In this document: piece by piece, positions 11,540 through 14,511 of the stretch
Layout of the letters: every line of letters begins with the position of its first letter
How positions within the stretch are numbered: position 1 is the first letter of the stretch
DNA from: an uncultured Flavobacteriales bacterium
GTDB taxonomy: Bacteria; Bacteroidota; Bacteroidia; Flavobacteriales_E; Vicingaceae
Assembly (NCBI GenBank): GCA_913056345.1
Contig: CAJXMH010000026.1
Span: 1 to 40,861 of the forward strand
Direction: 5' to 3'
DNA length: 40,861 nt
Notes under the pieces: model-generated
What the model saw: only the letters and a program-made list of their open reading frames with translations
What the model was told of the DNA's origin: nothing
Databases searched by the model: none
Position numbers and translations under genes: made by a program

Positions 11540-11827
11540 ATGACAAAAGCAGATATCGTAGCTGAGATTTCAGAAAAAACAGGAGTAGAAAAAGTGGCAG
11601 TACAAGCTACTGTTGAAGAATTTATGAGCTCTATCAGAAAGTCTCTAGAAAACGGCGAGAATGTTTATTTAAGAGGCTTTGGTAGCTTCATCACTAAAAA
11701 GAGAGCTGAAAAAACGGGAAGAAATATTTCAAAGAATACCACTATGATTATTCCTGAGCATTTTATACCTGCTTTTAAGCCTTCTAAAAGCTTTGTAGAA
11801 AAAGTTAAACAAAACGTAAAGCCTTAA
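11540..11827 (+). CDS. HU/IHF-family DNA-binding protein
   Basis: A 95-residue nucleoid protein: MTKADIVAEISEKTG, the helical dimer part (1-45), and the beta-arm region with GFGSFITKKRAEKTGRN (45-62), followed by the IPAFKPSKSFVEKVK end. The arm is ordinary in length, and the residues around NISKNTTMIIPEHFIPAF resemble the IHF-like branch common in Bacteroidota. It is the first gene of a plus-strand unit with the TPR gene, the 30-residue basic protein gene and rng. It follows a 65-base leader from the predicted promoter. Confidence 0.95.
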   Translation: MTKADIVAEISEKTGVEKVAVQATVEEFMSSIRKSLENGENVYLRGFGSFITKKRAEKTGRNISKNTTMIIPEHFIPAFKPSKSFVEKVKQNVKP

Positions 11828-11828
11828 T

Positions 11829-12719
11829 TTGAGCAAGTTTTCAAATACAACAAAGAAGCAACTCTTGCTAATACTAGCAGGAGTTGTTTTTCTGGTGGCC
11901 ATTATGTTCATGCCCAAGAGCAAGAGTAGTTCTGAAGATAATGAAATTGCAGAAGAGCTTTTACACAATGATGCTGAGCATGATCATGAACACGAGCATG
12001 AACAAGCTTCAGACGAACAAGAAATGGCTCCCGATCAACCGAGCTTAAGTCCTGAGCTAGCTCAAAAATTTGAGACTTTAGAGTCGAAAGCAAAACAAGT
12101 AGCAGATGTTGATACTAAACTTGCCTTATATGACTCTTTAATTGGGCTAAGCATCAAGAATAACTTACCACCATCTGTTGCAAAATACAGTAAACTAAAG
12201 GCACAGGCTGTACCTACAGAAAATAATTGGCTTTTAGCCGGTGATAATTATTTTAAAGCTTTTCGACTATCAAAGAACAAAGCTGCACCAATGATCAAGG
12301 GTGCGGTTAAATGTTACAATGAGGTTTTAGCGCTTAATGAGAACAACTTAGTGGCTCAAACTGCACTAGGCGTGGCCTATGTTGAAGGAGCCGCAGCCAT
12401 AGGCGCTATGCCTATGAAAGGAATAGGAATGCTTAAGGATGTGTTAAATGTTGACCCAGAAAATATAGATGCCTTAACAAATTTGGGTTACTTTGCAATT
12501 CAATCAGGTCAATACGAAAAGGCGATAGAACGTTTTGAAACAGTGCTTAGGATTGATCCTGAAAATGCTGAAGCTTACATTTATTTAACTGATGTTTATT
12601 TGAGCCAAGATAAGGTAAGCAAAGGGATAGAGACATTAGAACAATACAAATCTATGGTGAACGACCCACTTGTTGCTAAACAAGTGGATGAATACATCTT
12701 AGAATTAAAAAACAAATAA
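11829..12719 (+). CDS. Membrane-anchored TPR protein
   Basis: A 296-residue protein with an N-terminal membrane anchor (QLLLILAGVVFLVAIMFM, about 11-28). A linker rich in His, Glu and Asp follows (LLHNDAEHDHEHEHEQASDEQE, about 43-64). The C-terminal half holds TPRs, clearest at about 210-285 (DALTNLGYFAIQSGQYEKAIERFETVLRIDPENAEAYIYLTDVYLSQ). No ATG precedes the membrane segment, so the TTG at 11829, one base after the HU-like stop, is taken as start. The TPR part should face the periplasm if the anchor is N-in. The His-rich linker may bind metal. The partner is unknown. Confidence 0.82.
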   Translation: MSKFSNTTKKQLLLILAGVVFLVAIMFMPKSKSSSEDNEIAEELLHNDAEHDHEHEHEQASDEQEMAPDQPSLSPELAQKFETLESKAKQVADVDTKLALYDSLIGLSIKNNLPPSVAKYSKLKAQAVPTENNWLLAGDNYFKAFRLSKNKAAPMIKGAVKCYNEVLALNENNLVAQTALGVAYVEGAAAIGAMPMKGIGMLKDVLNVDPENIDALTNLGYFAIQSGQYEKAIERFETVLRIDPENAEAYIYLTDVYLSQDKVSKGIETLEQYKSMVNDPLVAKQVDEYILELKNK

Positions 12720-12737: not shown

Positions 12738-12830
12738 ATGCCAAGCGGTAAGAAAAGAAAAAGACATAAGATGGCGACACACAAGCGTAAGAAGAGACTA
12801 CGCAAGAACCGTCACAAAAAGAAAAAGTAA
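12738..12830 (+). CDS. 30-residue very basic protein, likely small ribosomal protein (mS38/bS22-like)
   Basis: An ATG at 12738 opens a 31-codon frame ending in TAA at 12828-12830. The peptide begins MPSGKKRKRHKMATHKRKKR and continues with LRKNRHKKKK; about two thirds of the residues are Lys, Arg or His. It is too short for usual gene callers. I recall near-identical peptides at the same place upstream of rng in many Bacteroidota. The KRKRHKMxTHKRKKRLRKNR pattern resembles the COX24_C/mS38 family, which includes actinobacterial bS22. That points to a ribosome component that threads into rRNA, but the assignment is inference. It lies 18 bases after the TPR stop. Confidence 0.75.
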   Translation: MPSGKKRKRHKMATHKRKKRLRKNRHKKKK

Positions 12831-12846
12831 TCCAATACTCTTTTAG

Positions 12847-12866
12847 GGGAGTTCTCTCCCTGTTTT
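12847..12866 (+). terminator. Weak stem-loop with short T tract between the basic-protein gene and rng
   Basis: GGGAG (12847-12851) / CTCCC (12856-12860) with loop TTCT, followed by TGTTTT. It may partly end transcription or act as a processing site before rng. The evidence is weak. Confidence 0.35.
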
Positions 12867-12928
12867 GATTCTTGAAATAATCCCTGCATGTACTATGCCT
12901 TGGGATTGTTTCGTTTGTATAACTTTTG

Positions 12929-12957: not shown

Positions 12958-14511
12958 ATGAGTGTTGATTTAGTAATCAGCTCTAAGCCTTCAGAAGATG
13001 TCATTGCTTTACTTGAAGACAAAAGGCTTATTGAGCTGCACAAAGAAAAGAGTAACAATAATTACTCTGTAGGCGACATATATTTAGCTAGGATAAAGAA
13101 AGTTATGCCTGGTCTTAATGCTGCTTTCGTTGATGTAGGCTACGGGAAAGATGCTTTTTTACATTACTTAGATCTCGGACCCAATTTCTCATCCTTGAAT
13201 AGTTATGTAAAAGCAGTTAGGGCTAATAAGTATCAATCAGCTTCACTTAAAAAATTCAAGTTTGAAGCTGAAATTGATAAAGGTGGTAAGATTTCGGATC
13301 AACTCGAGTCGAATCAGCATGTTTTGGTTCAGATAGCGAAAGAGCCTATTTCTACCAAAGGACCTAGGTTAAGCAGTGAGATTTCGCTTGCAGGCCGATA
13401 CATGGTATTGGTGCCTTTTTCGGATCGCATCTCTGTTTCTCAAAAAATCCGGAATTACGAAGAAAAAGAAAGGCTTAAAAGGCTGATTAAGAGTATTCGA
13501 CCTGAAGGTTTTGGTGTTATTGTGCGAACAGTGGCTGAGAATAAAAAGGTGGCTGATCTTCATGCTGATCTAAGTGACTTGATGAATAAGTGGGAAGAAT
13601 GTTTCAAGCAAATCAAGAAAGCAAAGCCTCCGCATCGTGTCTTAGGGGAGTTAAGCAGGACTTCAGCAATGCTAAGAGACTTGCTCAACAAAGACTTCAA
13701 TAAAATATACGTTGACAATTTTGATACCAAGAAAGAGCTTGTAAGCTACATAAAGTCCATAGCTCCCGGCAAGGAGAAGATGGTTCAAGGATATCGCCGT
13801 AAAATTCCAATTTTCCAGCACTTTGGCATTGAGAAGCAAATCAAAGCTTCATTTGGTAAAAATGTTACCATGAAGTCGGGTTCTTATCTAGTGATTGAGC
13901 ATACCGAAGCCATGCATGTTATCGATGTTAACAGCGGACAAAGGAGTCGTACAAGTGATGATCAAGAGCAAAATGCACTAGAAGTCAACATTGAATCAGC
14001 TGAAGAAGTCGCTCGCCAATTGCGTTTGCGTGATATGGGTGGAATCATTGTGGTGGACTTTATAGATATGCGTGAAGGGGCGAATCGCGAAAAGCTGTTT
14101 GAGAAAATGCGTGAATTCATGAAAGAAGACCGCGCCAAGCATACCATATTACCTCCCACTAAATTTGGTTTGATTCAAATTACACGGCAGCGTGTAAGGC
14201 CTGAAATGGATATCAAAACGGCGGAGAAATGCCCTTGCTGTAATGGCACCGGAGAAACGCAAGCCACTGTTTTATTGATCGATGAGATTCAAAACAATTT
14301 ACGCTACATTCTAACGCAGTTTAACCAGAAGAAGATTACCCTAACTGTACATCCATTTATCGAGGCTTATATCACAAAGGGATTTTACTCCCTTCAGCGT
14401 AAATGGTATATGAAGTATAAAAAGTGGGTAAATGTTAGAGCTTCTGACGCCTATCAGTTTTTAGAGTACCGCTTTTTTGACTTAAACGGCGAAGAAATCA
14501 AGCTGAAGTAA
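12958..14511 (+). CDS. rng: Ribonuclease E/G family endoribonuclease
   Basis: Cuts single-stranded RNA in rRNA maturation and mRNA decay. The 517 residues lack the long RNase E C-terminal scaffold, so it is RNase G-like in size. The S1 domain begins near residue 38 (VGDIYLARIKKVMPGLNAAFVDVGYGKDAFLHY) and carries an insertion (about 72-120, rich in Lys and Ser). The catalytic Asp residues are visible at 323 (VIDVNSGQR) and 367 (IVVDFIDM). The zinc-link is CPCC at 425-428. The start ATG at 12958 gives the conserved N-terminus SVDLVISSKPSEDVIALLEDKRL. Its stop is 7 bases from the convergent MFS gene stop. Confidence 0.95.
   Translation: MSVDLVISSKPSEDVIALLEDKRLIELHKEKSNNNYSVGDIYLARIKKVMPGLNAAFVDVGYGKDAFLHYLDLGPNFSSLNSYVKAVRANKYQSASLKKFKFEAEIDKGGKISDQLESNQHVLVQIAKEPISTKGPRLSSEISLAGRYMVLVPFSDRISVSQKIRNYEEKERLKRLIKSIRPEGFGVIVRTVAENKKVADLHADLSDLMNKWEECFKQIKKAKPPHRVLGELSRTSAMLRDLLNKDFNKIYVDNFDTKKELVSYIKSIAPGKEKMVQGYRRKIPIFQHFGIEKQIKASFGKNVTMKSGSYLVIEHTEAMHVIDVNSGQRSRTSDDQEQNALEVNIESAEEVARQLRLRDMGGIIVVDFIDMREGANREKLFEKMREFMKEDRAKHTILPPTKFGLIQITRQRVRPEMDIKTAEKCPCCNGTGETQATVLLIDEIQNNLRYILTQFNQKKITLTVHPFIEAYITKGFYSLQRKWYMKYKKWVNVRASDAYQFLEYRFFDLNGEEIKLK

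Follow-up and report, generated by a model that had tools for sequence, protein, structure and literature searches.

Ribosomal protein bS22 of Flavobacterium johnsoniae and of Borrelia lies in the same 30S pocket, made up of h2, h27, h44 and h45, and contacts H68 (PMC10618245). It is equivalent to the mitochondrial mS38 and to the eukaryotic eL41 (PMC10618245, PMC10085706), and a bridge from bS22 to H67 of the 23S rRNA has been described as well (PMC10085706). The window analysed here, a stretch of DNA of 40,861 nucleotides, contains a short frame at positions 12738–12830 of the plus strand that almost certainly encodes bS22, a bent-helical, highly basic 30S protein that would sit in the h2/h27/h44/h45 pocket and bridge to 23S H67/H68. 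The gene is not new: earlier work had recorded bS22 in Bacteroidetes, and ribosome structures of relatives have been solved.

Identity and conservation of the bS22 frame

Translation of 12738–12830 rendered MPSGKKRKRHKMATHKRKKRLRKNRHKKKK followed by a stop. The frame runs from ATG to TAA and specifies 30 residues, 21 of which are Lys, Arg or His, in agreement with the original prediction of a very basic 30-residue product with a clean start and stop. When the PDB sequences were searched, three distinct chains were matched, all of them gapless from residue 1: a chain of 9i5v named AURKAIP1/COX24 domain-containing protein (28/30 identical, E 1.2e-10), chain 5 of 7jil (27/30, E 3.8e-10) and chain V of 8fmw, the Borrelia bS22 (20/28, E 1.1e-5). 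Entry 7jil is presumably the F. johnsoniae ribosome, which is consistent with PMC10618245 and PMC10085706. The product therefore shows full-length homology to chains built as bS22 (7jil, 9i5v, 8fmw); it also falls within a length of ∼28–33 residues, more than half of it is Lys, Arg or His, it starts with MPxGxKRK and it finishes with a THKRKKxxxKNRHKK-like end. The identification as bS22 rests on these full-length matches to chains of solved ribosomes and on the literature (PMC10618245, PMC10085706), and the same evidence bears out the earlier reading of the frame as an mS38-like small-subunit ribosomal protein. The accompanying view of bS22 as an actinobacterial protein was too narrow, since it is also known in Bacteroidetes and Borrelia. 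PDB entries (7jil, 9oz9, 9ozn, 9ozz, 9p0e) give an identical 30-residue chain two names, 30S S22 and 50S L38; the latter is probably a mislabelling, because in the Borrelia paper bL38 designates a different, 50S protein (PMC10618245).

Family models performed less well. No NCBIfam model matched the 30-residue protein, and a family search of the organism's own whole genome did not pick it up. The HMM comparison with PF08213 (COX24_C) proposed along with the original prediction gave 12.1 bits (E 0.19) for the single sequence, below the Pfam gathering cut-off of 23 bits, although the alignment spans nearly the full profile (residues 3–30 on profile positions 3–30). The PF08213 test is thus formally negative, although the mS38-like relationship is correct. 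A ribosomal protein that is close to universal in its phylum, yet has no NCBIfam match and stays under the Pfam cut-off, is easily overlooked in annotation; a dedicated bS22 model would mend this gap.

Conservation of the reading frame in related genomes, earlier named as a test of the gene, was evident at both scales analysed. A matching frame was found in 56 of 60 relatives (50/51 when only those of good quality are counted) and in 377 of 392 genomes sampled across the phylum (374/389 for good-quality genomes), nearly always as one copy per genome in the phylum sample. Pairwise comparison of eleven 30-codon copies gave a mean pS of 0.76 and a mean pN of 0.03, the latter biased low because the copies were chosen by high protein score; the phylum-wide matches point in the same direction, being 90–100% identical among the matches listed. 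The variation in bS22 DNA is mainly synonymous, and the frame is a strongly conserved coding gene. A search of phage records found none carrying the protein.

By analogy with the solved structures, bS22 would have the same ribosomal role in the source organism: it would insert into the 16S pocket formed by h2, h27, h44 and h45 beneath the decoding region, form an additional inter-subunit bridge by contacting 23S H67/H68, and stabilise the joint between the subunits as well as the top of h44. A peptide this basic might instead bind nucleic acids or act as an antimicrobial, with its main job off the ribosome, and purified Cutibacterium acnes bS22 does inhibit both bacteria and cell-free translation (PMC10085706). 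We consider this very improbable here, as the 30 residues hold no hydrophobic secretion signal, and a sequence that is near-invariant across the phylum, together with a defined ribosome site in relatives, fits a structural ribosomal protein. That 12738–12830 is a chance Lys-rich frame within A-rich DNA and no gene at all, as the low complexity of the 30-residue peptide and its AT-rich DNA could suggest, is refuted by the conservation of the frame, which hundreds of genomes keep with mostly synonymous changes, and runs against the full-length matches to solved-ribosome chains.

Neighbouring genes and transcription

The bS22 gene is preceded on the same strand by genes for an HU-family DNA-binding protein (11540–11827, +; PF00216, 94 bits) and a TPR protein (11829–12719, +; Pfam TPR families), and followed by rng, of the ribonuclease E/G family (12958–14511, +; PF10150, 328 bits). 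Among loci of the same class, drawn from 20 families, all 20 had rng downstream of bS22 in the same orientation, its match beginning ∼160–380 nt from the bS22 start; bS22 was preceded by a co-oriented HU gene in 18 and by a TPR gene in 16, with a divergent mutY further upstream in 15. The rng linkage was also present in 33/33 same-class loci of the first sets. Outside the class, rng was near bS22 in none of 20 further loci (one of which, L106, offers too little downstream sequence to tell), nor was it found within 1.5 kb of bS22 in any of the 16 other-class loci of the first sets. HU was upstream on the same strand in 13/20 of the former and near bS22 in 15/16 of the latter. Since HU stays with bS22 outside the class and rng does not, the HU–bS22 linkage looks like the older one, with rng joining within the class. 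This class is inferred to be Bacteroidia from the F. johnsoniae match and a gldE-like neighbour. The synteny with rng that had been proposed for checking thus holds throughout the same-class loci but is absent from the rest of the phylum; being confined to one class, it says little about rRNA processing, which weakens the earlier argument from co-location with an rRNA-processing RNase.

Several other-class bS22 genes (loci L021–L023, L028, L032, L037, L041 and L042) are preceded by a Shine-Dalgarno-like GGAG or AGGAG. The same-class copies have A-rich leaders only, in line with the lack of Shine-Dalgarno use in Bacteroidia.

A pattern scan and folding revealed a terminator-like hairpin just 3′ of the bS22 stop (12846–12861, +); hairpins that differ in sequence occupy this position in several relatives (e.g. 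loci L010 and L020). In view of this hairpin and of those in relatives, the HU-TPR unit probably closes with bS22, rng being transcribed separately or by read-through; bS22 would be transcribed mainly with HU and TPR, the transcript ending at the hairpin before rng. Of the HU-TPR-rng operon originally predicted, the same-strand neighbours are as described, but the terminator-like hairpin comes between bS22 and rng.

A stem-loop in the rng leader

The whole bS22–rng spacer folds better than 200 of 200 shuffled versions (z -4.15). It contains a stem-loop at 12872–12918 (+), recognised by folding, by comparison with relatives and by a covariance model, in which the core CCCTGCA..TGC..TGGG is invariant and the outer stem shows compensatory changes at 4 of 13 pairs. 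The model, built from eight members, was run over 56 sources and matched ahead of rng in 11 of them, all belonging to one family; five of these 11 (L111, L112, L114, L115 and L117) are outside the model and scored 25–58 bits. In the organism's own whole genome the only good match was 12872–12918 itself, and no Rfam family matched the stem-loop. At the corresponding position, other genera of this family carry a hairpin that differs in sequence. In E. coli, the rne leader serves the autoregulation of the RNase mRNA. We suggest, tentatively and as the less probable outcome, that the spacer may hold a new cis-regulatory RNA, the rng-leader stem-loop providing rne-like autocontrol of RNase E/G from behind the terminator that separates it from bS22.

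Apparent losses and comparison with known bS22 proteins

No bS22 match was present in any of the seven sampled genomes of family f57 (G203, G251, G255, G365, G379, G391, G424), nor in five of nine genomes of genus g125 (G283, G330, G342, G394, G445), all of them near-complete. A degenerate DNA pattern proved too strict, missing the true bS22 of G137 and G207 (also g125, with a variant carrying S10, I12 and K14), and a profile was used in its place. Re-searching eight non-matching f57 and g125 genomes with the profile found no bS22 apart from one partial match in G365, which is weak, covers 13 residues and lies inside a long frame. Basic peptides near HU in the genomes with no match included no convincing divergent bS22; for one such peptide, at locus L053, no counterpart turned up in the two congeners inspected. 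The absences in f57 and g125 are apparent lineage-specific losses, and because these genomes have no match, confirmed by profile for the eight re-searched apart from the weak one in G365, bS22 seems dispensable in some lineages. Such scattered losses, affecting one whole sampled family and part of one genus, offer natural comparisons for bS22 function.

Among known relatives of the product of 12738–12830, the F. johnsoniae bS22 (7jil chain 5) also has 30 residues, aligns without gaps and differs by three substitutions (M12V, L21A and K23A). The B. burgdorferi bS22 (8fmw chain V) aligns over residues 1–28 and shares its pocket with the Flavobacterium protein (PMC10618245), but the deposited chain has 28 residues; the start codon is GUG, and the protein was found from its density. 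The mitochondrial mS38 (AURKAIP1/COX24) is longer than bS22, and the query scores below the PF08213 cut-off, but mS38 and eL41 share with bS22 both the ribosomal site and the basic helix (PMC10618245, PMC10085706).
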